Shown: positions 3,730-36,470 of the stretch, one piece after another
How positions within the stretch are numbered: position 1 is the first letter of the stretch
Layout of the letters: each line of letters starts with the position of its first letter
Source: Geotalea toluenoxydans JCM 15764
GTDB taxonomy: Bacteria > Desulfobacterota > Desulfuromonadia > Geobacterales > Geobacteraceae
Direction: 5' to 3'
DNA: 64,000 nucleotides
Assembly: GCF_001311985.1 (NCBI RefSeq)
Contig: NZ_BBCJ01000009.1
Span: 62,001 to 126,000, forward strand
The notes under the pieces: model-generated
Databases searched by the model: none
Told to the model about the DNA's origin: nothing
What the model saw: only the letters and a program-made list of their open reading frames with translations
Made by a program: the position numbers and the translations under genes

Positions 3730-4966
3730 GAGCTGCCATTCTTTCCATCGGTGACGAACTGCTTCTGGGCGAAGTGGTGGATACTAATGCCGCCACCATT
3801 GCGGCGCGGCTCTATAATCTGGGGGTCAACCTGCCGCTGCAGATGACGGTGGGGGACAGCATGCAGGATATTGTCGATGCCTGCCAGCTGCTGGCAGGGA
3901 AGAGCGATACCGTTATCGTCACCGGCGGCCTTGGTCCTACGGTGGATGATGTCACAGCCATGGCTGCGGCAAAGCTTGCCGGTTCACCACTGGAACCGAA
4001 CCTGGAGGCGATGGCTCATCTGAAAAATTTTGCCGAAAAAGTGGCAGAAAAGCTGCATCCGGCAAATGACAAGCAGGCGCTGATGCCGGTGAGCGCCAAG
4101 GTGATACCTAACCCGGTGGGTACCGCCTGCGGCTTCTCGCTGGTCCATGAAGGCTGCAGATTTTTTTTCCTCCCCGGTGTTCCCGGCGAGATGGTCTCCA
4201 TGCTCGATGAAACGGTGCTGCCGGCACTTGCTTCCTCCGGTCGGCTCAGGACATTGCGGACAAAAACATTCAAAGTATCGGGTGTGTCCGAGGCCGAACT
4301 GGATGTGATGTTGCAAGGGATGACGGAAGGTTTTGCCGCCGCCTCCATTGCCTTCTGCGTCAATTTTCCGGAAATTGAGGTAAAGATCAGGGTGGTGGCG
4401 GACGAAGAGCTAACTGCCGACGAAATTATCGCCATCGTAGGTGACAAGACCAGGAACATTCTGGCAGCCGCGTTTTTGCCGAGGATGGTGAAACCATCGA
4501 CACGGTGGTGGCCGGTCTTTTCAAAAAAACAGGAGCTACCCTGTCCCTGGCCGAATCCTGCACTGGCGGCCTCATTGCCAAACGCATTACCGATCTTTCC
4601 GGAAGTTCGACATATTTTCTCGAAGGTCTTGTTACTTACAGCAACCGGGCCAAAATCGATCTGTTGGGCGTTCCCGCGCAACTTCTGGAAGAAAAAGGTG
4701 CAGTCAGTGCCGAGGTGGCAATGGCAATGGCTCGTGGAGCAAGGGAAAAATCCGGCAGTGATCTTGCTCTTGCCGTTACCGGTATCGCGGGTCCCGAGGG
4801 GGGCTCAGCGGAAAAGCCCGTCGGCACGGTGTTCATGGCACTTGCCGGCCAGGAGCAATGCCGGGTCAGGCTTTTTAATTTTCATGGTGACCGGGAGCAG
4901 GTTCGCCTGGTCACCTCGTTTGCCGCCCTTAACTGGCTGCGAAGGGAGCTGCTCGCCCGGCCATAA
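3726..4966 (+). CDS. cinA: CinA-like competence/damage-inducible protein (frameshifted)
   Basis: CinA combines an N-terminal MoaB/COG1058 domain (residues 1-170; SIGDELLLGEVVDTNA, TGGLGPTVDDVTA) with a C-terminal nicotinamide-nucleotide amidase (PncC-type) domain (LSLAESCTGGLIAKRITD, GIAGPEGGSAEKPVGTVF), and is linked to pyridine-nucleotide recycling. The start is GTG at 3726, inside the pgpA stop. The frame slips in the T run at 4473-4477; one extra T restores continuity into the C-terminal domain, giving about 413 residues, the normal length. Co-occurrence with recA downstream is common, although a kinase gene intervenes here. Confidence 0.92.
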
Positions 4967-4977
4967 CAAGCAACAAT

Positions 4978-7100
4978 ATGCAGCACGATGACAGGTGGAT
5001 CATGACGTCTGCCAGAAAAAAAACCGCTGTTAAAATCCTCATCCTCTCCATCGGACTGATGCTCTCAGGCTCATTGCCGAGGCACTCCTTCCCGCCGCCG
5101 TTTTTTCACCCCTTCTTCACCTGGCTGTTGTTGTTTTGCTGGCGGTTTCGCTCGTCATCCTCAAGGTAGCTGGGGGGACAACGAGAACCCACAGGGAAAG
5201 CGAATACTCCCATGAACTGCAGGAAATGCAGCGGGAGGTGGACAAGACCATCCGCCGCTACAAGAGTCTTCTTGAAGGGGCCGGCAATGCCATCTTTGTC
5301 TTCAATGCAGACAGCGGCATTCTGGAAGAGGTTAACCGAAAAGGGTGTGAACTCCTCGGCTTCAGCAAGGAGGAAATGGCCGCCATGCGCGGCAAGGATC
5401 TGGTGCTTGAGGATGAGCAGGGAAAATTCACCTTGATGGTCTACCGGGTGAAGCGCCGTGGCCGGGCCCATTCCGACGGCATTACCTTCAAAAAGAGCGA
5501 CGGCTCTTCCTTCCTTGGCGAGATAGATGCCCGGCTGATCGATCTCGGAGATGAAAATTTGGTTCATGTTATCGTACGCGATGTTACCTACAGGCACCGG
5601 GCAAAGCTGGAGATCCAGCAACGGAACAGAGAATTATCAATTCTCAATAATATTCTGGCCGGTACCCAGACTTCCGATCTGCAGACGGTACTTGAAACAA
5701 CCATCAAGGAGACTCTGGAAATATTCTCTGCCGAGGGGGGCACCATCCACCTTCTGGAAGACGACGGGAAGAGCCAGGTGCTGGCTGCTTCCATCAACAT
5801 CTCTCCGGAACTTAATGGGAAATTGGCCCATAATAGATTGCAATGCCCATCGGACTGCCGCATGTCGTCAGTTCAGCGTTGCCATGTGCTGAACTCTCTG
5901 GAGGAATTTCCATGCCACATTGCCCTGGCCGCAGCGGAGGAAGGTTGGCAGTGCATCACGGCGGCGCCCCTGGTGGCGAAAACGGACCTGATCGGCATCA
6001 TGCATATCCTGACCCGTGCGGAGCAGCATTATGCCACAGAGGAATTGCGATTTCTGAGCACCATGGGAAGCCAGATCGGCATAGTTATAGAGCAGTCCCG
6101 GCTTTTCAGCGAACTGAACTGGAAGAACGAGGAACTGCTCCGCTCCCATCGCCTGCTGGAAAAAAGCAGCAACAAACTGGCCGTTTCCCAGAATCGGTTG
6201 AGGAAGAATCTGACCCTTGTGGAGCGGGCCAACGCGGAGCTGGAAAGATTTGACAGGATGAAAAGCCACTTTATCGGCATGATTTCCCATGAATTCAAAA
6301 CTCCTCTTACCAGCGTCCTCGGTGGCGCCGAGTATCTCCTCAACCTGGACAACCGGGATCTGTCGGTGGAACAAAGGCGCATGCTGGAGATGATATACAA
6401 TGGGGGCCATCGACTGAACGAGATAGTCAGCGATCTTTTGACTGTAATAAAACTGGAAACCAGCGCTTCACCGGTAAAAAAAGTATCGTTGCAGCTGTCG
6501 GAGATTATCGAAACCTTGCAGGAACAATTCAAGCCGCTTCTCAATGAAAGGAAGCAGACCTTGAGTTTCCGTAACCAGGAAGCCCTACCTTATTTCAATG
6601 GTGATCGTGAGTATCTGGAGGAGGTTTTCAATGAACTGCTGGAGAATGCCATGAAATTTACCCCCGATGGCGGTGAAATCATCATCAAGGGACGAGTTGT
6701 CGACCGACAGGCTTTGGCAGAAAAGGCGGAACTGCTGATTCGCTTCAATCCCGGTTTTTACGAGCACCAGAGCGGCTCATGCTATCTTGAGGTGCAGGTG
6801 CAGGATTCGGGCATCGGTATCAGGGTTGACGAGCAGCTGAAAATTTTCGACAAGTTCTATGAGGTGGGGGACATCAGGCACCATTCCAGCGGCAAACACA
6901 AATTCCAAGGCAAGGGGACCGGTTTGGGACTGGCCATCGTCAAAGGGATGGTGGAAGCCCATGGCGGAATGGTGTGGGTCGAATCGTCGGCGGGATCAGG
7001 CAGCTCGTTCTTTTTGCTCCTGCCACTCGAGGAGATTCCAGGGCAGCCTACACTCCCCTTTGTTCAGCAGGAAGCTCTCCCCTTTTTAACAGGTCTTTGA
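4978..7100 (+). CDS. Membrane sensor histidine kinase, PAS-GAF-HisKA-HATPase (frameshifted near N-terminus)
   Basis: This is a hybrid-less sensor kinase. Two hydrophobic segments near the N-terminus (KILILSIGLM and LHLAVVVLLAVSLVILK) should anchor it in the membrane. They are followed by a PAS domain (SLLEGAGNAIFVFNADSG), a GAF-like domain (TSDLQTVLETTIKETLEIF onwards), a coiled-coil linker, HisKA with the phospho-acceptor box SHEFKTPLTSVLGG, and a HATPase domain with N box NELLENAMKF, G1 DSGIGI and G2 GTGLGLAIV. The start codon region (ATG 4978 or 5002) is one base out of phase with the rest; a base lost near 5062 explains this. No partner regulator is adjacent. The ligand is unknown. Confidence 0.88.
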
Positions 7101-25142: not shown

Positions 25143-25946
25143 ATGGTGAAAGTTGCCGTTTGCGGTGCCGCTGGCCGCATGGGTCAAAGGATTATAGTTG
25201 CAATAACCGAAGCCGAAGGGATCGAGCTCTCCGGTGCCCTGGAGCGGCCGGGCCATCCCCTGGTCGGTCAGGACGCGGGGCTTCTTGCCGGCTGCGGCGA
25301 ACTGAAGGTTAAGATCAGCGACGACATCAATGCCGTCGTCGAAGGGTGCGATGTCCTGATCGACTTCACCACCCCGAAGGTGTCCCTGAAGAACCTGGAG
25401 GTCTGTGCCCTGAAGAAGAAGTCTATCGTCATCGGCTCCACCGGCTTCACCCCCGAAGAACGGGCACTGGCTGCCGAGCTGGCCAAGGAGATCCCGGCGG
25501 TGCTCGCCCCAAACATGAGCGTCGGCGTCAACGTCTGCTTCAAGGTCTTGAAGGACGTGGCCAAGACCCTGGGTGACGACTTCGACGTGGAGATCGTCGA
25601 GCTGCACCACAACAAGAAGAAAGACTCCCCCTCCGGCACTGCGGTGCGCATGGGGGAGGTGGTGGCCGAGGCCCTCGGGCGCGACTACAACAAGGTGGCC
25701 AACTATCACCGGGAAGGAATCTGCGGCGAGCGGACCAAGGAAGAGATCGGCATGCAGACGGTCCGCGGCGGCGACATCATCGGTGAGCACACCGTCTACT
25801 TCATCGGCATGGGTGAGCGGATCGAGATTTCCCACCGGGCCATGACGCGGGATATGTTCTCCCGTGGTAGTGTCCGGGCGGCCAAGTGGATAGTTTCCCA
25901 GAAGCCGGGGATTTACGACATGCAGGATGTGTTGGGGCTGAAGTAA
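25143..25946 (+). CDS. dapB: 4-hydroxy-tetrahydrodipicolinate reductase
   Basis: DapB reduces the dihydrodipicolinate product of DapA with NAD(P)H. The 267-residue protein starts VKVAVCGAAGRMGQRI (Rossmann glycine loop) and has VLIDFTTPKVSLKN, the GSTGFTPEE loop, APNMSVGVNVCFK, the catalytic ELHHNKKKDSPSGTA box and C-terminal FSRGSVRAAKW. It is intact. It follows dapA after the palindromic repeat. Confidence 0.96.
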   Translation: MVKVAVCGAAGRMGQRIIVAITEAEGIELSGALERPGHPLVGQDAGLLAGCGELKVKISDDINAVVEGCDVLIDFTTPKVSLKNLEVCALKKKSIVIGSTGFTPEERALAAELAKEIPAVLAPNMSVGVNVCFKVLKDVAKTLGDDFDVEIVELHHNKKKDSPSGTAVRMGEVVAEALGRDYNKVANYHREGICGERTKEEIGMQTVRGGDIIGEHTVYFIGMGERIEISHRAMTRDMFSRGSVRAAKWIVSQKPGIYDMQDVLGLK

Positions 25947-25957
25947 GGAGCATTAAA

Positions 25958-26191
25958 ATGGCTACCACCTATCGGGACAGGCTGATCGCTGATATTGACG
26001 AGGTTCCTAAATCAAAACTGCCACAATTGTATGCCATCGTGCATACAATAAAGGAACAGTTGCTGACAACAGCTCCGACAGGACCAGGTGTTGGCAAGCG
26101 TTGTCTTGGCAGTGCCAAAGGGCATGTCTGGATGGCTGATGATTTCAACGCGCCGTTGCCGGATGAGATAGTTGACGAGTTTTACAAATGA
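25958..26191 (+). CDS. Putative VapB-type antitoxin (DUF2281-like)
   Basis: A 77-residue protein starting at ATG 25958 after AAGGAG. The N-terminal half (RDRLIADIDEVPKSKLPQLY) is helical, and the tail GSAKGHVWMADDFNAPLPDEIVDEFYK contains the G-x-K/G...DDF-x-x-PLPxE pattern seen in antitoxins paired with PIN toxins. It overlaps the downstream PIN gene by four bases (ATGA), the usual arrangement. It is expected to neutralise that toxin and to autoregulate. No separate palindromic operator is seen in the 11-bp gap to dapB, so it may be transcribed with the dap genes. Confidence 0.75.
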   Translation: MATTYRDRLIADIDEVPKSKLPQLYAIVHTIKEQLLTTAPTGPGVGKRCLGSAKGHVWMADDFNAPLPDEIVDEFYK

Positions 26192-26574
26192 AATGCCTGC
26201 TGGATACCCATGCGTTCATCTGGCTTATTACCGATGATGATCGCTTGTCAGCGAAGGCAAGAAAAACCATTCTTGATAGTCGAACTTTTTTATATCTTAG
26301 CAGCGCCAGCATTTGGGAGATGGTTGTCAAGGCCGCTATCGGCAAGTTGAAGCTTCCTGTTCATCCTGAAGCTTTCGTGCAGAAGCAGCTGGCGGCAGCC
26401 CAGATACAGGAACTCCCCGTCTCCTTCAAGCACGCCTTCCATCTGCAGCATCTGCCCAATCACCACAAGGATCCATTCGACCGAATGCTGGTGGCGCAGG
26501 CTCTAGCCGAAAAACTGACCATTCTCACAATCGATCCATTGATTGCCCAATATCCTGCAAAAACACTTTGGTAA
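26188..26574 (+). CDS. PIN-domain toxin (VapC-like ribonuclease)
   Basis: 128 residues. PIN acidic residues are visible: D6 in MKCLLDTHAFIWLI, E44 in SASIWEMVVKAA, and the C-terminal KDPFDRMLVAQALAEKLTILTID with two Asp. Such toxins cleave tRNA or rRNA. The YLSSASIWEM...HHKDPFDRMLVAQA form is the subclass commonly paired with DUF2281-type antitoxins. It is intact and forms a two-gene unit placed between dapB and dapL. Confidence 0.85.
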   Translation: MKCLLDTHAFIWLITDDDRLSAKARKTILDSRTFLYLSSASIWEMVVKAAIGKLKLPVHPEAFVQKQLAAAQIQELPVSFKHAFHLQHLPNHHKDPFDRMLVAQALAEKLTILTIDPLIAQYPAKTLW

Positions 26575-27834: not shown

Positions 27835-27842
27835 TTTGTGAC

Positions 27843-27869
27843 GAAAGGCGGCCTATGAGGCCGCCTTTC
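27843..27869 (+). terminator. GGCGGCC-family hairpin after dapL
   Basis: A 12-bp perfect stem GAAAGGCGGCCT / AGGCCGCCTTTC with loop ATG, followed by CATGAAAG rather than a long T run. It belongs to the repeated AAAGGCGGCC/GGCCGCCTTT hairpins found after many genes in this window and likely ends dap transcription. Confidence 0.75.
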
Positions 27870-28027
27870 ATGAAAGGGTTTGTATTTCATTTTAGGCTTT
27901 GGCTTCGGGGGAGGCGGTGGTAGCAGGTCCGACAAGGTTTCCTGGCGTAACGTCACAACATAATGTAACAATTGACGGTAGATTGCACGTGTCCGTCGGC
28001 ACGAAAAACATTAACGAGGTGACAAAG

Positions 28028-28144
28028 ATGAAACAAAATACGTTCAAGAAACTTGTAGCAAAAACAGTACGAAAAGCAGCGCGTTGTACGAGTACCGTGG
28101 CGTTACTAGGAAGCCTTGCATCTGCCCCGCTGACCAAAGCCTAA
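28028..28144 (+). CDS. Small cationic peptide, 38 residues, function unknown
   Basis: ATG 28028 has a good ribosome site (GAGGTG, six bases upstream). The peptide has eight Lys/Arg and no acidic residues. A basic amphipathic first half (KKLVAKTVRKAARC) is followed by a small-residue hydrophobic stretch (STVALLGSLASAPL) and a final KA. It could be a small membrane-active toxin, a secreted or modified peptide precursor, or a chance frame. An in-phase TTG 43 codons upstream exists but is less well supported. It converges on the JAB-E1 gene, ending 41 bp from that stop. I do not recognise it. Confidence 0.4.
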   Translation: MKQNTFKKLVAKTVRKAARCTSTVALLGSLASAPLTKA

Positions 28145-28185
28145 AATCCACAATGTACCAGCTCTTTTACTAATTCCAAATGCTC

Positions 28186-29622
28186 TCACAAGATTTTCTC
28201 ACGCTGACGCTGTCTTTCGCGAGCTTTTTCAGCACCGATATCGCGACCGCAGAGTGAAAAATTTCGGTCTCCATGCCCTTCTAGTTCCTGACAATCACAC
28301 CCGTCTTTGCACTTCCTTTCGACATCGACTTCAATATTGCCTGGTATGTAGCGGTACCGCTGGATACCAAAATCACTGATTCCCCCAACCCCAGTTGCCA
28401 ACGCAATCAACTGAAGGACCTCAAGGGAAGCAAGATTGGTGCTGAAGGGGAAGACATTCTCGTTATTTTTGTGTCGATGATCAGGTGGCAAACCTTTCAT
28501 GTAGCTCGGGTCATCAAGTTTGCCTGATTCTTCCAAATTTACATCCGTGAGATTATAAGTCCCGAGGCACGCAAGACAGGGTCTGCCAGGCGCGACTGTC
28601 TGAAGTTGCCAATCGACGCCAGTGAACCGCTTATTCTTGTCGAAGCGAACTTCAATTCCTCCATCAACAACCGGTATTAAATGACTATATGCAAAATGGT
28701 TGAGAATATGTCGGGCGCGGGGGCGGTCAACGCAACTAAAAATAACGTCGCAATCCAGCGCTGCACGGTAACCTTCTTCTTCTGCTAAGCTGTGCGGTGT
28801 TGAAGCAATATCTGTTCTCTCTGCAGTTGCTGAATGCTCAAACTGCCGCTTAGCAACTTCTATCTTTAGTTTGCCAAGGTCTGCTTCTGTTGCCCCTAAA
28901 AGTCTGTCGAGATTGTGCGGCTGTATCTCGTCGTAATCAATCAAAGAAATAAACTGCATTCCCATGCGGGCCAGGGTTTCTGCGACAATACTGCCAACGC
29001 TGCCTAGCCCAATGATGCCAATTTTGAGACGAGCAAGGTTTTGGTGATTATCTTTGCCCCAAACGGTGATAGAACGCTTAAATTGCTCTCGATAAACAGG
29101 TTTCGGCATTAAATCATCATTAAAATCTGCCTTAAGCCCTATCCCGACAATGCGAACAGATTGGCACCATTCGCGACGATACTCGCGGCCACCAACGTGT
29201 TGCCACATTCTCGCACTCCAAGTGCCATCAGAACCTATGGTCATCCCTACAAGCGGCAAATCGGTTAGTGCTGCCACTGCCCCAGCGATCTTCCGCTCGG
29301 CCAAAATGTCGTCTTCACTCATACCCTGCCAACCGGCTCCGGGGTGACTGTGGAGAAAAGCAATTCCACAGCCTTCCCGTAAAGCAATTGCGCAAACTTT
29401 CTCAAAATAATCTGGGTTAAAGCTAGCGTTCCCATGGACCTGCCTATCTCCGGCTTCCGGAAATATAATTGTATGAATCAGAGCAGTTAAACGTGAATTC
29501 CCCTGTGATGGAGTCCACAGAGCAAAAGTCAGATCCTCTTGCCGATCCTTTCGAATTAGAAAATTTGAGAGGCTGGTGTTCAGCCTCTCAGGCATGGCTA
29601 CAGATAATGAAATCTTAAGCAT
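28186..29622 (-). CDS. JAB deubiquitinase-like / E1-like (ThiF) fusion protein
   Basis: 478 residues. The N-terminal JAB/MPN domain (about 1-150) has the JAMM zinc signature HSHP (91-94) with S102 and D105, so it should cut Ubl conjugates or mature the Ubl. The ThiF/E1 adenylation domain (about 195-435) has GLGSVG at 205-210, the DYDEIQPHNLDR stretch at 229-240 and VVDGGIEV near 320. A probable zinc site is made by CLAC (349-352) and the C438/C442/C444 cluster. There is no cysteine between 353 and 437, where thioester-forming E1 enzymes keep theirs. The gene overlaps the E2-like gene by 8 bases. The composition is richer in A/T than the dap genes, suggesting transfer. Confidence 0.88.
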   Translation of the reverse strand: MLKISLSVAMPERLNTSLSNFLIRKDRQEDLTFALWTPSQGNSRLTALIHTIIFPEAGDRQVHGNASFNPDYFEKVCAIALREGCGIAFLHSHPGAGWQGMSEDDILAERKIAGAVAALTDLPLVGMTIGSDGTWSARMWQHVGGREYRREWCQSVRIVGIGLKADFNDDLMPKPVYREQFKRSITVWGKDNHQNLARLKIGIIGLGSVGSIVAETLARMGMQFISLIDYDEIQPHNLDRLLGATEADLGKLKIEVAKRQFEHSATAERTDIASTPHSLAEEEGYRAALDCDVIFSCVDRPRARHILNHFAYSHLIPVVDGGIEVRFDKNKRFTGVDWQLQTVAPGRPCLACLGTYNLTDVNLEESGKLDDPSYMKGLPPDHRHKNNENVFPFSTNLASLEVLQLIALATGVGGISDFGIQRYRYIPGNIEVDVERKCKDGCDCQELEGHGDRNFSLCGRDIGAEKARERQRQREKIL

Positions 29623-29989
29623 TGGCGAATATCCCCTTTATTTGGTTCATGAGAAGACGTGTCGACCGTTCACTGCCGTTCCATCCGAAGTTGTGGCTCC
29701 AGTAGCGCCACTCTGGCCCCAGTGAGCTATTGGTTATGTTCCGTACGCCTGGTAACGTATCGGAGTAGTCAAATAATTGTGGTTCCGTTCTCACGTGTAA
29801 TGATGCGCCTACAGTACGAGGGAAATCTGGAGTGGCCGGGATGGCTAATTCAATAGTTCGACCAGCAAACTGTCCAAGGGGAACCTCATACTCCTCGATA
29901 ACTGCAAAAACCGCTTCACCCACGTTAATCATTTCAACAGCGTAGCCGAGTTCCACCAATTCAATGCGAAGTCTTTCAGGTCCAAACAT
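29615..29989 (-). CDS. E2-like protein without cysteine (prokaryotic E2 family)
   Basis: 124 residues, read between the Ubl and JAB-E1 genes, with RBS GAGGTG overlapping the Ubl stop. The pattern (IELVELGYAVEMI, VPLGQFAGRTIELAIPATPDFP, then GPEWRYWSHNFGW and a C-terminal helix) resembles bacterial E2/UBC-fold families that accompany multi-ubiquitin-type Ubls. The protein contains no cysteine at all, so it cannot form a thioester with the Ubl. A Ser/Thr nucleophile (for example the NSS preceding LGPEW) or a purely structural role is possible. Family assignment is from motif memory and context, not a search. Confidence 0.72.
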   Translation of the reverse strand: MFGPERLRIELVELGYAVEMINVGEAVFAVIEEYEVPLGQFAGRTIELAIPATPDFPRTVGASLHVRTEPQLFDYSDTLPGVRNITNSSLGPEWRYWSHNFGWNGSERSTRLLMNQIKGIFANA

Positions 29990-29998
29990 ATCAGCACC

Positions 29999-30232
29999 TC
30001 ACGAAACAGTAGTTGGGGTATTGTGGTAAACAACAAATTTCATGCCGTTAACGAGGGTTAGGACCATGGCAAGGTCCATAAGTTTCTCGAGTTCATTCCC
30101 ATGCCGCCTAACTAATGTAGTCTCGTTAGGGTTTGACATGGCGAAATCTTCGAGGAGTTCGCGAACAGTGACTTCCGTTTTCTCAGTTTTGAATTGTTCC
30201 TGATCGATGAAAAACACAATTTCTTTCTTCAT
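29999..30232 (-). CDS. Ubiquitin-like protein (single multi-ubiquitin-type domain)
   Basis: 77 residues forming one beta-grasp-like unit: strand (EIVFFIDQEQFK), strand (TEVTVRELLEDFA), a middle region with LVRRHGNELEKL, and the end GMKFVVYHNTPTTVS. The MKFVVYHNTPTTVS tail is like the ends of multi-ubiquitin domains. It lacks a terminal diglycine and has no extra tail to trim, so Ser77 would be the residue activated by the E1. It is first in a three-gene operon and faces the divergent XRE gene across a 186-bp regulatory region. RBS AAGGAGAAGG precedes ATG 30232. Confidence 0.75.
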   Translation of the reverse strand: MKKEIVFFIDQEQFKTEKTEVTVRELLEDFAMSNPNETTLVRRHGNELEKLMDLAMVLTLVNGMKFVVYHNTPTTVS

Positions 30233-30291
30233 GGCACCTTCTCCTTTTGCACGGGTTAAATTCTTAAACGTGTGCTTAGGTTATTTTATTT

Positions 30292-30369
30292 TGCTTGATA
30301 CGTCAAGCATTATTTTTGCCTTGCGTAGTTAGTCAAGCATTAAATAAGTTTTGCTTGCTGAAGTGAGCA
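30292..30369. promoter_or_regulatory. Three phased 18-bp operator-like sites between the Ubl operon and XRE gene
   Basis: Site 1 (30292-30309) is a perfect inverted repeat TGCTTGA-TACG-TCAAGCA. Sites 2 (30322-30339, TGCGTAGTTAGTCAAGCA) and 3 (30352-30369, TGCTTGCTGAAGTGAGCA) share the TGC...GCA frame with degenerate arms. The start-to-start distance is exactly 30 bp twice, close to three helical turns. The intervals are T/A-rich. This is the natural place for the XRE protein to repress both directions; the binding is inferred. Confidence 0.7.
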
Positions 30370-30418
30370 TGTTTGTCATAATATCTCTATATAAAAAGCA
30401 CTTCCCCGGGAGGTACCC

Positions 30419-30808
30419 ATGCCAAAGACAAATGAAAAGCCTAATCGTCCTGAGGCAAAAGAGCTGGGAAACTATCTAGCCAACATCCGCACCGCAAAGC
30501 GTATGACGCTCAGAGAAGTTGAAGATGCAACCAATAAGGATGTATCTAACGCCTACCTCAGCCAGCTCGAAAACGGTCGGATCAACAAACCTTCGCCGAG
30601 CATTCTCCACTCCCTTGCTTCGGTATATAATGTCCCCTATGAAATGCTCATGGAAAAGGCCGGTTATATTTCATCAGCCGCTGATCGTATTGAAAGTCAG
30701 AAGCACGGTCGAGTTGCAACGTTTGCTGGCGAAAATCTCACTCCAGAAGAAGAGGATGAATTACTAGAGTATCTTGCTTTCCTCCGCACACGTAGGGGCC
30801 ATAAATGA
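30419..30808 (+). CDS. XRE-family transcriptional regulator
   Basis: 129 residues with an N-terminal helix-turn-helix of the Cro/CI type (about 14-70: LGNYLANIRTAKRMTLREVE, then SNAYLSQLENGRINKPSPSI) and a C-terminal acidic helix (LTPEEEDELLEYLAFL) typical of regulators paired with ImmA-like proteases. RBS GGGAGG precedes ATG 30419. Its stop overlaps the next ATG (ATGA), so both are coupled. It is likely the repressor of its own operon and of the divergent Ubl operon, relieved when the protease acts. Confidence 0.88.
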   Translation: MPKTNEKPNRPEAKELGNYLANIRTAKRMTLREVEDATNKDVSNAYLSQLENGRINKPSPSILHSLASVYNVPYEMLMEKAGYISSAADRIESQKHGRVATFAGENLTPEEEDELLEYLAFLRTRRGHK

Positions 30809-31712
30809 TCAAGGCAGATGATAGCACCATCGACCCACCACAACTTTTAGCAATTCGCAAGCATGCACAAAGAGCATTGGAAGCTGCTGCAGCTATCGGT
30901 AAATACCCTACACCAATAGCTGACGTGATGCACAGTGCACAGGTAATCGTGGTTGAAGAAGATGTTTTGGATGAAGGGTTTTTGGCGCGCGTTCGCCGTG
31001 CGTCAGGGAAGCTAAAGCAGGCTCTTAGCAAGGTTTTAGGTGTGCTCGACATTAAAGCGAGGCTTATCTATCTCGACCGCACATTACATTCAGTCAAGTT
31101 AACCTTTCTAAAGCTGCACGAAACTGCTCATGCTGTCCTGCCTTGGCAAAGAGATATTTATGGAGTGGTTGAGGACTGCAAACAAACTATCGCACCTGAA
31201 GTCAGTGAGAATTTCGACAAGGAAGCAAACATATTTGCTTCCGAAGTTCTTTTTCAATTGGATGACTTCACAAGACAAGCAGCTGATCAATCGTTCGGCA
31301 TCAAAGTTCCAATTTCATTAAGCAAGAAATATGGTTCATCAATTTACGCTGCCGTACGAAGATATGTTTCCACAAATCACAGGGCTTGCATTGTTATTGT
31401 CATTGATCCTCCGGAGTTAGTGGCAGGTGATGGCTTTCAGGCAAATTTGCGTAGGGTGGTTACCTCTGCTGGATTCGATCTAACCATGGGAACCCTTAAT
31501 TGGCCAAAGTACTTTACCCCGGGAGACGAAATAGGAGCAATGATTCCGATAAATGGCCGAAAAATGTCTTATCCTAGAAATTGCTCTCTTAGGGATGCTA
31601 ATGGTGGCCTGCATGAATGTATCGCCGAGGCATTTACTAATACCTATCAAGTGTTTGTGCTTATTTATCCAGTTTCAAAGCTTTCAAAAAAAAAATGTCC
31701 TGTTATAAATAG
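30805..31712 (+). CDS. ImmA/IrrE-family metallopeptidase
   Basis: About 300 residues. The zinc motif H105-E-T-A-H109 (FLKLHETAHAVLPW) plus E140 in FDKEANIFASEVLF define a gluzincin of the ImmA/IrrE (COG2856) type, which cleaves partner XRE repressors during SOS or phage signals. A C-terminal GAF-like half (IVIVIDPPELVAGDG onward) may sense a ligand. A run of ten A at 31686-31695 lies at the 3' end: as written the frame runs on through repeats into the fic 3' end, while one more A gives KKKMSCYK and a stop at 31710-31712. I take the shorter end. Transcriptional slippage on this tract is possible. Confidence 0.8.
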
Positions 31713-31722
31713 CTCTGGGGAG

Positions 31723-31786
31723 ATGCATAAGGGTCGGGAGATGCATAAGCGGATGCATAAGGGTCGGCGGATGCATAAGGGTCGCG
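31723..31786. repeat. Short tandem repeats with ATGCATAAG core
   Basis: Four copies of ATGCATAAG start at 31723, 31741, 31753 and 31771 (spacing 18, 12, 18). Three continue as GGTCGS. Copies are in direct orientation. The block separates the convergent ImmA-like and fic genes and abuts the fic stop. It is too short and irregular for CRISPR and looks like a slippage-prone array. Confidence 0.85.
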
Positions 31787-31787
31787 T

Positions 31788-32960
31788 CTACACATTACAC
31801 AAATTGCTTGTGAGATCCTTCTGTAGTTCAGTCCCTTCGCTGACAATCTTGACGTATTCTCGGTACATGAATTTGCGATTTCTCCTGCCTTTGCTGATCT
31901 GCTGCAGAAGGCCCAAACGCTCACAGGTGCCAATCATTTCGTTGGCTTTGGTATAGCTTACCCCGGCTATCTTGGCAACGTCGTTTGCCATTACAACAGG
32001 TTGCTTCATGAGGCCCCGCAGCAGTTTCAGCCCGTGGGCGCCTTCCCCTGCCTCTACCAGCCGGTCCACATCATCCCGCTCCAGCGCCTGAATTCTCCTG
32101 GTCGTTTCAAGCACCATTTTGGATACTTCGATTATCCCCTCAAGAAAGAAGCGGGTCCAGGCTTCGAAATTTCCGTCCACTCTCACCTGGGTCAAGCGGT
32201 CATAATATTCCTGCTGATGCGCTTTTAAATAGGCGCTTAGGTAGAGCATCGGCTCATCGAGAATCCCTTTCCAGACCAGATAGAGTGTTACCAGCAAACG
32301 TCCCACCCGGCCATTGCCGTCGTTAAATGGGTGGATGGTTTCAAATTGATAGTGCAGCAGTCCGCAACGAACAAGCGGAGGGAGGGAGTCTTCCTTGTGA
32401 AGATAAAGCTCGAAGAGGTTCAGTGCCTCCTGCATTGTCTCGGGAGGTGGCGGGATAAAACGGGCATTGGCAGGGTTGGAGCCGCCAATCCAGTTCTGCA
32501 TGGTTCGGAACTCTCCGGGAGTCAGGTGAACCGCTCCACCTCGAACCTGTTGCATGAGAACCTCGTGGATCTCGCGGAGTAGTCGCAGCGACATGGGGAA
32601 ATCGTCTGCCCTGAGCCGTTTCAACCCGTGGCGCATGGCTTTGACATAATTTATTACCTCGCCTACGTCGGCAGTCGGCTCGTGATCTTCGTCGGCACCC
32701 AACACATCAACGAGAGATGACTGGGTGCCTTCGATTTGTGAACTGAGCAGTGCTTCCTTCTGGATAAACATCCCCACCAGCAGATCAGGGTTGGGAAGCA
32801 CCGTTACTACCACATTCAGTGCGCCAAGCGCGCGGTCGGCAGCCGAGAGCAGCAATTGCAACTCACCTTCAAGACGGATTGGAGGATCAGGCGGCAGCGG
32901 CGCCGGGAAAAAAGAAGTGTATCCTGCGAGGGTTTTTTTGAAAACGCCGCTTCGAGACAT
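31788..32960 (-). CDS. Fic-domain protein (AMPylase-like) with C-terminal winged helix
   Basis: 390 residues. The Fic active site HPFNDGNGRVGR lies near residue 205, so the enzyme can transfer AMP (or another nucleotide) to a protein hydroxyl. The inhibitory helix motif SSQIEGTQSS is near residue 75, ahead of the Fic core, which makes this a self-contained class II Fic protein. The C-terminus (VVMANDVAKIAGVSYTKANEMI) is a helix-turn-helix, suggesting DNA binding and autoregulation. RBS AGGAGG precedes ATG 32960. It is intact. Its last codons touch the ATGCATAAG repeats. It has no separate antitoxin. Confidence 0.92.
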   Translation of the reverse strand: MSRSGVFKKTLAGYTSFFPAPLPPDPPIRLEGELQLLLSAADRALGALNVVVTVLPNPDLLVGMFIQKEALLSSQIEGTQSSLVDVLGADEDHEPTADVGEVINYVKAMRHGLKRLRADDFPMSLRLLREIHEVLMQQVRGGAVHLTPGEFRTMQNWIGGSNPANARFIPPPPETMQEALNLFELYLHKEDSLPPLVRCGLLHYQFETIHPFNDGNGRVGRLLVTLYLVWKGILDEPMLYLSAYLKAHQQEYYDRLTQVRVDGNFEAWTRFFLEGIIEVSKMVLETTRRIQALERDDVDRLVEAGEGAHGLKLLRGLMKQPVVMANDVAKIAGVSYTKANEMIGTCERLGLLQQISKGRRNRKFMYREYVKIVSEGTELQKDLTSNLCNV

Positions 32961-33050
32961 AGTGCCTCCTGTGCTATGTGTAAATTCTGAGTTATAGCCG
33001 GATTGGAAAGAGGTATATCACGTTTTGTTAAATATAAGGATAATTATTTA

Positions 33051-33102
33051 CGCCATATCTCGCAAATTCGAGATATGGCGCCTTGGTAAACCGCCATATC
33101 TC
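33051..33102. promoter_or_regulatory. Palindrome upstream of fic, three CGCCATATCTC copies
   Basis: A perfect 12-bp inverted repeat (CGCCATATCTCG at 33051-33062 and its complement at 33069-33080, loop CAAATT) is followed by a third direct copy of CGCCATATCTC at 33092-33102. It lies 90 bp upstream of the fic start. Without a T run it is more like an operator array than a terminator; the winged-helix end of Fic is one candidate binder. The rest of the 318-bp fic-rluA gap holds only one hairpin terminator. Confidence 0.6.
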
Positions 33103-33139
33103 CCAGCACTGTAAATTAAGCGAACACCATACTTAATTC

Positions 33140-33163
33140 AAAGGCGGCCAATCGGCCGCCTTT
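33140..33163. terminator. GGCGGCC-family hairpin in the fic-rluA gap
   Basis: Stem AAAGGCGGCC / GGCCGCCTTT with loop AATC, then GCTGTAT. It is nearly identical to the hairpin at 41441-41464. No complete gene ends just upstream on the plus strand, so it may be a relic of the gene that once preceded the accessory insertion. Confidence 0.7.
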
Positions 33164-33278
33164 GCTGTATAGTAGTCGGTACTGGAATGAAGTATTTGTT
33201 CTGCGCTGACGGTGATAATCCACCGGCCGATCAAGACGACCTGTGCGGGGTACAAGATGCAGAGCGAGGAAAGGTTAC

Positions 33279-34199
33279 ATGGGAATAGCTAAACATCCTT
33301 CAGTAGTTACCATGCCGAGAACCGCAAAGCCATACCCGTCCCTCCTTGTTTTCCTGTGTGACCGATTCCCCGCTATTTCCCGGGAGATTTGGGCGCAAAG
33401 AATTGCCGAGGGAAAGGTCCTGGATGAAAATGGCCAACGGCTGACGCTGGAGACTGCATATGCCCCCTTAAAGCGTATTTTTTATTTCCGCGAGGTCCTT
33501 AGCGAGCCGTGCATCCCTTTTGCTGAAAAGATCCTCTTTCTCGATGATGAGATTTTGGTCGCCTGCAAACCACATTTTCTTCCTGTGACTCCGGGTGGAC
33601 GCTATGTTGACGAATGCCTGTTGAACCGTTTGCGCAAGAGTACCGGAATTGAAGATCTGGTGCCGCTGCACCGGTTAGATCGTGGCACAGCCGGCCTGGT
33701 TCTCTTCTCGGTCAATAAAAAGAGCAGAGGGCTCTACGCAGGACTCTTCCTGAACAGGCTGATTGAAAAAACCTATCAGGCAGTGGCGGCATGTCATCCA
33801 CTTCAGGAAACAGCCTCATGGAATGTGGAGACAAGAATAGAGCGGGGAGAACCGGGGTTCCGGATGAAAATGGCACCTGGCAGGGTCAATGCCATTTCCG
33901 CCATTCATCTGGTTGAGGTCAGGGGAGAACTGGCTCGCTTCACCCTGCTGCCGCAAACCGGCAAAACCCATCAGCTGCGGATTCATATGAGCGGTATCGG
34001 CTTCCCGATACTGAACGACAGCTATTATCCCGAGCTGCTGGACGAAAGCGCTGACAATTTTGCCGTGCCACTCCAGCTTCTGGCTCAAAGACTGTGCTTC
34101 AAGGATCCTCTGAGCGGCAAGAACAGAGAGTTCAGTCTGAGCGAGAGCTGTTATGGTGACGATTCCAGAGAATTCCGGTGGGACATCATAGTTAATTAA
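33279..34199 (+). CDS. RluA-family pseudouridine synthase
   Basis: 306 residues from ATG 33279 (RBS GAGGAAAGG). The catalytic motif HRLDRGTAGLVLFS, with Asp at about residue 133, is that of the RluA family, followed by the EKTYQAV strand and LLPQTGKTHQLRIHMSGIGFPI near residue 235. It isomerises uridine in rRNA or tRNA; the target cannot be told. The N-terminal part is S4-like (ISREIWAQRIAEGKVLDENG). It lies alone between hairpins. Confidence 0.9.
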   Translation: MGIAKHPSVVTMPRTAKPYPSLLVFLCDRFPAISREIWAQRIAEGKVLDENGQRLTLETAYAPLKRIFYFREVLSEPCIPFAEKILFLDDEILVACKPHFLPVTPGGRYVDECLLNRLRKSTGIEDLVPLHRLDRGTAGLVLFSVNKKSRGLYAGLFLNRLIEKTYQAVAACHPLQETASWNVETRIERGEPGFRMKMAPGRVNAISAIHLVEVRGELARFTLLPQTGKTHQLRIHMSGIGFPILNDSYYPELLDESADNFAVPLQLLAQRLCFKDPLSGKNREFSLSESCYGDDSREFRWDIIVN

Positions 34200-34200
34200 A

Positions 34201-34222
34201 AAGGCGGCAAATTGGCCGCCTT
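34201..34222 (+). terminator. GGCGGC-family terminator after the pseudouridine synthase
   Basis: Stem AAGGCGGC / GCCGCCTT with a six-base loop, followed by CGTTGTTC. It starts directly after the TAA of the synthase gene. Confidence 0.75.
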
Positions 34223-34244
34223 CGTTGTTCTGAAGAAGGGGCGC

Positions 34245-34278
34245 AAAAAAGAGGCCAAGGGAGTAAACCCTTGGCCTC
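34245..34278 (-). terminator. Terminator of the minus-strand PLP decarboxylase
   Basis: An 11-bp stem GAGGCCAAGGG / CCCTTGGCCTC with a six-base loop. On the minus strand it is followed by six T (plus-strand A run 34245-34250). It lies 26 bp beyond the stop of the decarboxylase at 34304 and is a canonical intrinsic terminator. Confidence 0.85.
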
Positions 34279-34303
34279 TAACTGTCTCTGACTGATGGAT
34301 CGA

Positions 34304-35622
34304 TTACAGCTTCACATCCAGCTCATTCTGCACCAGCTGCTCACGAACCTGCTTCTTCCTGATCAGCACCAGCTCACCGCTGCGGGTTTTCATGACCGCT
34401 CCCGGCTTGCGGTGGGAGTTGTAGTTTTCCGGCGACATACTCTCGGAGTAGGCTCCCGTGCCGCCGATGACCACATAATCCCCGATTTCCGGTTCGATAA
34501 TCAGCACCGGCACGATGTTGCCGTCTTTGTCCAGACGCACAGAGTCGCCGCTTTCGCAGCAGCGCCCGACAATACCGAACGGTTTCAGTCCGGCCGTCGG
34601 CGTCTGGTCGTACTCGCTGGAGAGCAGCGTACCGTCCTGGCGGACGATGGCGATGGGGTGCTCTGAGCCGTACAACAGCGGGCGTGTCAGCAGTTCCATG
34701 CCGCCATCGACGATCAGGAAGTTCATGCCGTTGGTCAGCTTCTTGTCGATTATCTTCGTAACAATGTGGCCTGAGTTGGCTACGACAAAGGTTCCCGGCT
34801 CGATCTCCATCGTCAGTTCTCGGCCGGTGGCTGCCTTGAATTCCTCTACCCGCTGCTTGGCATAGGCGCCCAGGGAGGTGATATCGGCCTGTTTTTCTCC
34901 CGGCATCCTGGCGACCTTGAGTCCGCCGCCGAAGCTGACGGTGGTGGCATCGGGGAAATAGCTCCGCACAAAGCCCAGTTCACGGTCGATGTTTTCCCGC
35001 CATTTTTCCGGGTCGCCACCGGAGCCGATATGCACATGCACCTGGGTGAAGCGTAGTCCCTTCTCATCAGCCAAGGCTTTCACCTTGGGACATCGTTCAG
35101 GTGGACGCCGAAGCAGGAATATTCGCTGCCGGTGTCGCGGGTGGCGCTTTCACCGCCGCCGGCAGCTCCCGGATGGACCCGGATCGACAGGTCGATGGTG
35201 TTGACTTTGGCAAAGTCGGCAATCAGTTGAAACTGGGTCAGGGAGCAGACGTTGTACTTGAGGCCGGCTTTGAGCATCGCCTCCAGTTCGGCGCGTTCCT
35301 CATCGGCCGGCACCTCCTGGGTGGTGAGCATCATTCGGCTATAGGGAATGCCGGCGGCATGGGCGCGGGCCGCTTCATCCACCGACGAGCAGTCCAGATC
35401 CAGCCCCTTGTTGGTGACGACCCGCAGGACGGTGCGATCCGAGTTTGCCTTCATGGCGTAGCGCACATGCAGGCCGTAGGCATTGGGCATGTTCAGCAGC
35501 TGTTCACAGCTGTTTTCGATGTATGCCTGATCGTGCAGATATACCGGCGTTCCCCACTGCTTGGCAATTTGGGGGATGAGCATTGCATCGAGTTTGGTCG
35601 GACCAAAGTGTTTCATCGTCAT
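34304..35622 (-). CDS. Second diaminopimelate decarboxylase-family PLP enzyme (frameshifted)
   Basis: About 440 residues of the fold III decarboxylase group. The PLP lysine is in VRYAMKANSD; HVHIGSGGDPEKW, the SFGGGLKVA loop, EIEPGTFVVANSGHI, RCCESGDS and a final GTGAYSESM follow. The pattern is that of diaminopimelate or carboxynorspermidine decarboxylases but differs clearly from the lysA at 22.8 kb, so it may act on another diamino acid. The frame slips near 35083; CCAAGG should be CCCAAGG (DVPKVKALADEK). ATG 35622 is the chosen start. It stands alone with its own terminator. Confidence 0.82.
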
Positions 35623-35896
35623 TCTTACACCCTCATAATTTGATATGACACTGCATTCCACAGTCTTCGAACAAAGATGGACATTCCTTTTAACATTTTA
35701 GACCGGTATGGTGCAAGATATCTGTGGAATTTTGTGCGTAACGGTGGAGTTATGGGGATAGCACATTTATTCCAAAAGTGGGCCAGTGCCCCCTTTGCCA
35801 TTTTAATGCTTGAAATTTTCCGGTTTAATGAGCGAGAATGTGCAGCATGCATATCAGTTTCTTCCTTAATGAAACAGCCACCGTTTCAATGTTTTT

Positions 35897-36417
35897 ATGA
35901 TGACCCACGATTCCCCTTTCATCTATCGCCCCATCGGCGTCCTGCAGTCCCCCTATTCGCGTCGCATTGACGCACCCCATCAGAGCACGGTGGTGGCAGG
36001 CACCAAAACCGGGGATTTCGCCTTGGCCACCCTGGAACTGCAGCAGTGGCTGGACGAGAAGGTCATTCAGGATCTGAGCGGCTTTGACCGGCTCTGGCTC
36101 ATCTTCGCCTTTCATCTGAGTGAAGGCTGGAAAACCAGTGTCAAACCCCCTCGCGGTGGACCGAAACGGGGCGTGCTGGCCACCCGCTCCCCCCATCGCC
36201 CCAATTCCATCGGTCTGTCGGCTGTGGAACTGGTAACGATCGAAGGAAGGACACTCCATCTGCGCGGTGTGGACCTCCTGAATGGCACACCCGTTCTGGA
36301 TATCAAACCCTATGTCCCTATGCGGATGCCTTTCCAGATGCCAGAGCCGGTTGGATCGATGACCTGGATGCCAAGCTCGGGCGTCACTCGGCGCCGGGGC
36401 CGCGAAAGCCCAAGTGA
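35897..36417 (+). CDS. trmO: tRNA m6t6A37 methyltransferase TrmO-like (frameshifted end)
   Basis: TrmO (YaeB/TsaA family) methylates t6A37 of tRNA-Thr using SAM. The N-terminal PIGVLQSPYSRRIDAPHQ, the FDRLWLIFAFH strand, RGVLATRSPHRPNSIGLSAVEL (split over about residues 88-112) and LHLRGVDLLNGTPVLDIKPYVP are the family core. As written, the C-terminus drifts after residue 140; one C added in GTCCCTATGCGG gives YADAFPDARAGWIDDLDAKL and a stop at 36415-36417, about 174 residues. The 274-bp gap before it holds only the promoter region of the divergent decarboxylase. Confidence 0.87.
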
Positions 36418-36470
36418 TGGTGTGATTTGCTGGAAAATAAGGTGGATATCGCTCCGATGCTGTGGTACCT

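Follow-up and report, generated by a model that had tools for sequence, protein, structure and literature searches.

We find that a three-gene operon in a 64,000-nucleotide stretch of the Geotalea toluenoxydans genome (the window, by which we mean this whole stretch) likely represents a branch of the Bub ubiquitin-like conjugation pathways that lacks DUF6527. In this operon, a ubiquitin-like protein (Ubl) would be converted to Ubl-AMP, transferred as an oxyester of Tyr374 in the E1 and/or Ser98 in the E2-like protein to a target, and removed by a JAB domain, with expression under CapH/CapP-type control. The genes and the sites in them that are discussed below are as follows.

29999..30232, minus strand: BubA-like Ubl, 77 aa, beta-grasp, C-terminus -NTPTTVS (ORF; fold from the model of a homologue)
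29615..29989, minus strand: BubB-like E2-fold protein, 124 aa, no Cys, Prok-E2_E family (ORF, Pfam, alignment, homologue model)
28186..29622, minus strand: BubCD-like fusion of an N-terminal JAB and an E1/ThiF domain, 478 aa (ORF, Pfam, sequence and model match)
30002..30004, minus strand: codon of Ubl Ser77, putative mature C-terminal residue (60 homologous ORFs)
29696..29698, minus strand: codon of E2 Ser98 (in YWSH), candidate acceptor nucleophile (invariant in aligned homologues)
28501..28503, minus strand: codon of E1 Tyr374, equivalent to Citrobacter BubCD Tyr370 (invariant in alignment)
29308..29352, minus strand: JAMM motif H91-S-H93-P ... S102xxD105, with E29 upstream (sequence and alignment)
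28567..28578, minus strand: first CxxC (C349, C352) of the likely zinc tetrad (alignment)
About 28297-28311, minus strand: second pair (C438/C442) of the likely zinc tetrad (alignment)

The reading frames are as described in the original prediction, i.e. three overlapping or closely spaced minus-strand genes for a 77-residue Ubl, a 124-residue E2 and a JAB-ThiF fusion. Each is preceded by a Shine-Dalgarno-like sequence, the E2 and E1 genes (29615..29989 and 28186..29622, both on the minus strand) share 8 nt, and the operon has a GC content of 47.5% versus 55.2% for the window. Homologues were sampled at 80 loci from genome contigs, and in nearly all of these loci, the E2 gene adjoins the E1 gene; the alignments comprise 77 E2s and 84 E1s. 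Ubl and E2 were modelled together with AlphaFold2 using a close homologue, L018, in which the two are naturally fused (pLDDT 95.3), and this high-confidence model supports both predicted folds, beta-grasp and E2.

The E2-like protein matches Prok-E2_E with an E-value of 5.1e-5 and 23.5 bits, just under the gathering score of 25. In agreement with the prediction of an E2 without any Cys, its 124 residues contain none, and the alignment of 77 sequences has no conserved Cys column, with a maximum of seven Cys per column. Because Cys is missing at the equivalent positions family-wide, its absence is, as judged from the alignment, ancestral rather than the result of local loss, chance or error; no conserved catalytic Cys had been lost only here. 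All 77 aligned E2s have Ser98, part of the motif YWS(R/H), as well as Gly39, and Trp94 is nearly invariant. When the groups were compared separately, Ser98 was kept in 76/76 window-type and 7/7 DUF6527-type E2s. By comparison, Ser88 (56/77) ranks below the invariant residues as a candidate nucleophile. In the homologue model, Ser98 follows the final E2 strands and precedes the C-terminal helix. The best PDB match of the E2 family profile is Citrobacter BubB (1.1e-5), with Ser98 aligned on the serine of the BubB RWSR motif, and the E2 half of the L018 model matches BubB with Z 10.9 (115 aligned residues, rmsd 3.1) in a match list that was filled by Ubl matches, so that the structural comparison of the E2 is with BubB rather than with canonical E2 folds.

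We consider it unlikely that the E2-fold protein is instead a catalytically dead, RWD-like Ubl-binding scaffold, with the E1 transferring Ubl directly or with no conjugation taking place. Such a reading was inferred by Iyer et al. 2006 for the same fold in '6e' operons on account of the missing Cys (PMC1779556). However, a potentially nucleophilic Ser is invariant in every homologue, where drift would be expected in a dead protein, and there is a solved structure of BubB bound to BubCD and BubA.

The JAB-E1 fusion contains a ThiF domain (Pfam, 6.6e-33), and the E1 residues for adenylation (D229, D231, N237, R240, K253 and D299) are invariant among the 84 E1s. The JAB residues that had been pointed out (HSHP, S102 and D105) are present and, together with E29, near-invariant across the 84 homologues (E29, H91-S92-H93-P94, S102, D105). 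Cys residues of the fusion are located at 77, 85, 153, 291, 297, 349, 352, 438, 442, 444 and 458. The original prediction assigned all of them either to the part before the crossover region or to a probable zinc cluster of C349, C352 and C438-C444. Its first element stands, as the crossover region (354-437) has no Cys in the window protein and no conserved Cys across 84 E1s. The cluster is narrower than proposed: the zinc tetrad is likely C349, C352, C438 and C442 based on the alignment, while C444 is present in 2/84 E1s and the additional C458 in 1/84. C291 and C297 are conserved and were rejected as catalytic Cys residues, as they lie in DCDVIFSCVD, a stretch of the adenylation domain and not of the crossover region.

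Within the crossover region, Tyr374 is invariant in 83/83 window-type and 7/7 DUF6527-type sequences (90/90 in total); Ser394, found in 80/84 E1s, was ranked below the invariant residues as a nucleophile. The alignment pairs Tyr374 with Tyr370 of Citrobacter BubCD, in which D104 is the JAB Asp. A PDB entry carries the title 'BubCD(D104A/Y370F)-BubB-BubA(155-229)'; that its depositors changed Tyr370 to Phe together with the JAB Asp in an E1-E2-Ubl complex fits a role of this Tyr as acceptor in the E1, and the title alone is no proof of an oxyester. By sequence, the fusion matches Citrobacter BubCD with 1.6e-21 over residues 10-353. An AlphaFold2 model of the window E1 (pLDDT 94.7, pTM 0.94) matches BubCD over residues 4-460 (Z 38.9, rmsd 3.1, 426 aligned), and the next non-Bub fold matches are MoeB and ThiF (Z about 24.8). 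For the conserved Ser/Thr that had been expected in the E2, Ser98 is the candidate; for the E1, for which no residue had been named, Tyr374 is the best candidate. Homology to BubA, BubB and BubCD and the two invariant residues give good support to the proposed non-thioester, Bub-type route, which we still infer from sequence. The invariance of Ser98 or Tyr374 could have structural reasons.

The window Ubl is a single Ubl without a Gly-Gly tail and ends in Ser. Among 60 stand-alone homologous Ubl ORFs, 53 have Ser or Ala as the final residue and only one has Gly at the same place. The tails follow the consensus G-P-T-P-V-(S/A), and 46/53 have Thr at the fourth position from the end. A few ORFs extend 2-5 residues past this motif (TPTSWR, TPVASRNRV), and about ten are joined in frame to the E2 directly after it (TPVS-D...). 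Such an unchanging motif with extensions that vary would be expected of a processed C-terminus. Citrobacter BubA ends in ...VNNG (Gly229) as chain and construct, with the BubB chain starting directly after. Judging from these tails, Ser/Ala in the window clade probably takes the place of the Gly of Bub, and Ser77 is the putative linked residue. The Ubl half of the L018 model has a beta-grasp fold, with matches to bacterial multi-ubiquitin proteins (Z 12.1) and to BubA(155-229) (Z 8.6; model residues 4..75 on chain residues 155..229).

Based on the conserved residues, we propose that the E1 half adenylates the Ubl C-terminus, probably at Ser77, and that Ubl would then pass to Tyr374 of the E1 and/or straight to Ser98 of the E2, with oxyesters replacing thioesters. 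The E2 would hand Ubl to the target, and the fused JAB, in which the JAMM motif is intact, would take it off again; JAB may also trim the Ubl precursor where Ubl has an extension or forms a fusion with the E2. We give an even chance to the fuller description, in which a widespread system of three core genes under DNA-damage-type control adenylates a Ubl ending in Ser/Ala (TPV-S/A) and passes it via E1-Tyr and/or E2-Ser oxyesters, with neither a catalytic Cys nor a terminal Gly.

The same oxyester chemistry could serve an acceptor that is a lipid, sugar, nucleotide or hydroxyl side chain rather than a protein lysine, comparable to the transfer of ATG8 to a lipid. The final acceptor is not readable from sequence, and oxyester acceptor chemistry could differ from that of thioesters. 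We nevertheless regard such an acceptor as quite unlikely: no cluster for lipid or sugar metabolism is prominent among the recurrent neighbours, the families of which were identified in part, and isopeptide removal is the typical task of a JAB such as the fused one. A ThiS/MoaD-like pathway (sulfur carrier or small molecule), to which the fold proximity to MoeB and ThiF and a similar layout of the CxxC pairs would point, is very improbable given that a rhodanese match in Pfam and a Gly-Gly tail are missing, that nearly all loci have an E2-fold gene next to the E1 gene and that the match to BubCD is far stronger.

Conjugation along a Bub-type route remains our preferred reading, and the closest characterised system is Bub of Citrobacter (BubA/BubB/BubCD; PDB 9ea4, 9ea5, 9ea8, 9eae and 9eav, released in 2025). 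Gene order and the JAB-E1 fusion are as in the window, the E2 active-site region is Cys-less with a WSR serine, the E1 has the crossover Tyr, and the fold matches over the whole chain. The window operon shares the features of Bub in the broad sense, i.e. a Cys-less BubB-type E2 with a WS(R/H) serine, an N-terminal JAB on the E1, a crossover Tyr and an upstream beta-grasp Ubl, the fold of the latter being based on the close homologue. However, it lacks the features of the Citrobacter/6e subtype, namely, a downstream DUF6527 gene, a multi-Ubl ending in Gly and an E1 in the DUF6527-type clade. The two E1s have about 22% identity and fall into separate clades; the characterised operons have a DUF6527 gene and a multi-Ubl-E2 fusion ending in Gly229, while the window has a single Ubl and no DUF6527 gene, and its clade has Ser/Ala at the Ubl end. 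C349/C352/C438/C442 are present in the window E1, while the CxxC is absent from Citrobacter, and the window E2 has His65 where Bub has Tyr. An oxyester mechanism is reportedly claimed for the Bub pathway in the mechanistic paper of Ye et al. 2026.

Other systems share parts of this arrangement. Type II Bil (bacterial ISG15-like) operons also combine Ubl, E2, E1 and JAB; they have catalytic cysteines and a separate JAB, neither of which is found in the window operon. The catalytic Cys in both E1 and E2 that defines a canonical ubiquitin-like cascade or Type II Bil is absent in our alignments. Type II CBASS Cap2/Cap3 resembles the window system in E1-type adenylation, a JAB partner and CapH/CapP-type control; Cap2 is an E2-E1 fusion with cysteines that acts on a cyclase, while the window operon has no cyclase. 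The Cys-less E2 of the Prok-E2_E type has been known since 2006 and was then read as inactive (Iyer et al. 2006, PMC1779556). Operon type 6e comprises a polyUbl, an 'inactive' E2/RWD-like domain, JAB-E1 and a Zn-finger protein (PMC1779556). It shares its domain set and Cys-less E2 with the window operon, and a solo Ubl is recorded in one 6e species. In contrast, 6e has a C-x3-C...H-x2-C metal-binding protein (which fits DUF6527) that is absent in the window operon, and the phylogenetic spread of the window clade is wider.

In a tree of E1 sequences, built with a quick method, 7 DUF6527-type and 83 window-type sequences are split by a branch with SH-aLRT 99. Two branches in this tree are very long, one of them leading to haloarchaeal locus L010. 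At this locus (4077-6602), plasmid-borne JAB-E1 relatives have an upstream gene that aligns loosely with the E2, seemingly without the WS serine, and the mechanism may differ. A DUF6527 gene is present in 6/7 comparison operons and was absent from the window and the 83 clade loci searched, apart from one marginal match (0.005, on the other strand, in L027). The window clade covers at least 14 phyla: Thermodesulfobacteriota, Acidobacteriota, Myxococcota, Pseudomonadota, Gemmatimonadota, Bacteroidota, Actinomycetota, Chloroflexota, Planctomycetota, Ignavibacteriota, Bacillota, Latescibacterota and two candidate phyla. Its spread is patchy, with the system in 2/48 genomes of the family of G. toluenoxydans and, using a looser cut-off, 3/395 genomes of its phylum. 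Using tblastn, the E1 had no match in the phage collection, and viral contigs gave one weak locus. In one sub-branch, a 329-aa protein is encoded convergently downstream of the E1 (L077, 6436-7425; also L069, L070, L072, L080 and L083).

The operon lies next to dapL in a variable region of ~8.6 kb (window 27835-36457). The region is considered variable because in relative G287 the sequence of window position 36458 begins 68 bp after dapL; other relatives have other inserts there. In the sister genome (G063), the operon occupies the same position relative to dapL, but the upstream HTH gene differs and no CapP-like gene is adjacent. Between the two operons, dS is saturated and dN is 0.21-0.30. 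Ahead of the sister operon (L111, 5425-7072) are genes for a dCTP deaminase-like protein (Pfam DCD, 4.6e-28) and for a 346-aa protein with a HELGH motif. In the window, a possible toxin-antitoxin pair lies between dapB and dapL (25886-26574), comprising a PIN-domain protein (26188-26574) and a small gene just upstream.

The system probably extends past 28186-30232 to include a divergent pair of genes for an HTH protein and an ImmA/IrrE protein, with an operator-like array between them and the operon.

30419..30808, plus strand: CapH-like HTH protein, divergent from the operon (PADLOC capH, 7.5e-7; a weak, general HTH match)
30805..31956, plus strand: CapP-like ImmA/IrrE (M78) protease with HETAH motif (PADLOC capP, 4.9e-14)
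30292..30369, no strand: three operator-like 18-bp palindromes starting at 30292, 30322 and 30352 (exact 30-bp spacing)
30309..30336, minus strand: best promoter-like site of the operon, TTGACT - 16 - AATAAT, overlapping the palindromes (consensus match only)

The capH-like and capP-like genes overlap by 4 bp and are next to the operon promoter region. Counted from the locus listing, 42/84 loci have a HEXXH M78 protease within about 2 kb, divergently oriented in 35 of those, while the window genome has only three M78 matches. Two relatives have full-length CapP matches (9e-56 and 2e-64), and matches in other relatives are partial or RmrA-like. At 383 aa, the capP-like ORF is longer than most relatives, and its tail may have been added when the original stop was lost. 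A tandem repeat of 18/30-bp units near its 3' end (31718-31784) encodes MHKGR repeats, and a minus-strand Fic-domain gene (31788-32960), with relatives near homologous operons L027 and L067, overlaps the tail. In Bacteroidota loci (L073, 3343-3960; L032, L039, L046 and L050), a conserved gene for a small protein, perhaps a sigma-factor-type regulator, separates the operon from the CapP-like gene and is divergently oriented.

The palindromes TGCTTGATACGTCAAGCA, TGCGTAGTTAGTCAAGCA and TGCTTGCTGAAGTGAGCA follow each other in exact 30-bp steps (30292, 30322 and 30352), and the perfect palindrome occurs a single time in the 4.2-Mb genome. In 500 dinucleotide shuffles of the 186-bp region, the observed score was never matched (p about 0.002). 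Only 7 of 39 homologous intergenic regions beat their shuffles at p<0.05, and a single window palindrome taken alone was not above shuffles at this threshold. Therefore, the operator claim is for the phased triple in the window only.

By analogy to the CapH/CapP family, the divergent CapH-like repressor would hold down expression by binding the three phased operators, and derepression would follow activation of the CapP-like protease; in the cases known, DNA damage leads to this activation through single-stranded DNA. CapH+CapP control immune operons that are de-repressed after DNA damage, CapH cleavage is activated by ssDNA in this family, and 219/544 Bub operons carry CapW or CapH+CapP (PMC13373217). 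Among possible roles of the tag, a stress response or antiphage immunity is most likely. From CapH/CapP-type control, an antiphage function is plausible; for Bub, antiphage activity is stated to be undemonstrated (PMC13373217). PADLOC matches of the E1 were rejected as a sign of a defence system, as they cover the shared ThiF domain only.

The kind of chemistry, which is that of Bub, and the Cys-less E2 were already known. The DUF6527-less clade, the Ser/Ala tail and the breadth of the clade may be new: we found no description of the three in a literature search outside the main Bub papers. Since the three-gene form is present in at least 14 bacterial phyla, the branch of Ubl systems that lacks Cys and probably uses oxyesters seems to be more than an oddity of a few plasmid-borne systems, and this simpler form keeps the same two invariant hydroxyl residues, Tyr374 and Ser98. 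Together with Ubl Ser77, these are named residues that are open to test. A Ubl ending in Ser/Ala questions the rule that conjugated Ubls have an obligatory terminal glycine, and DNA-damage-type control offers a possible handle for switching the system on and finding its targets.
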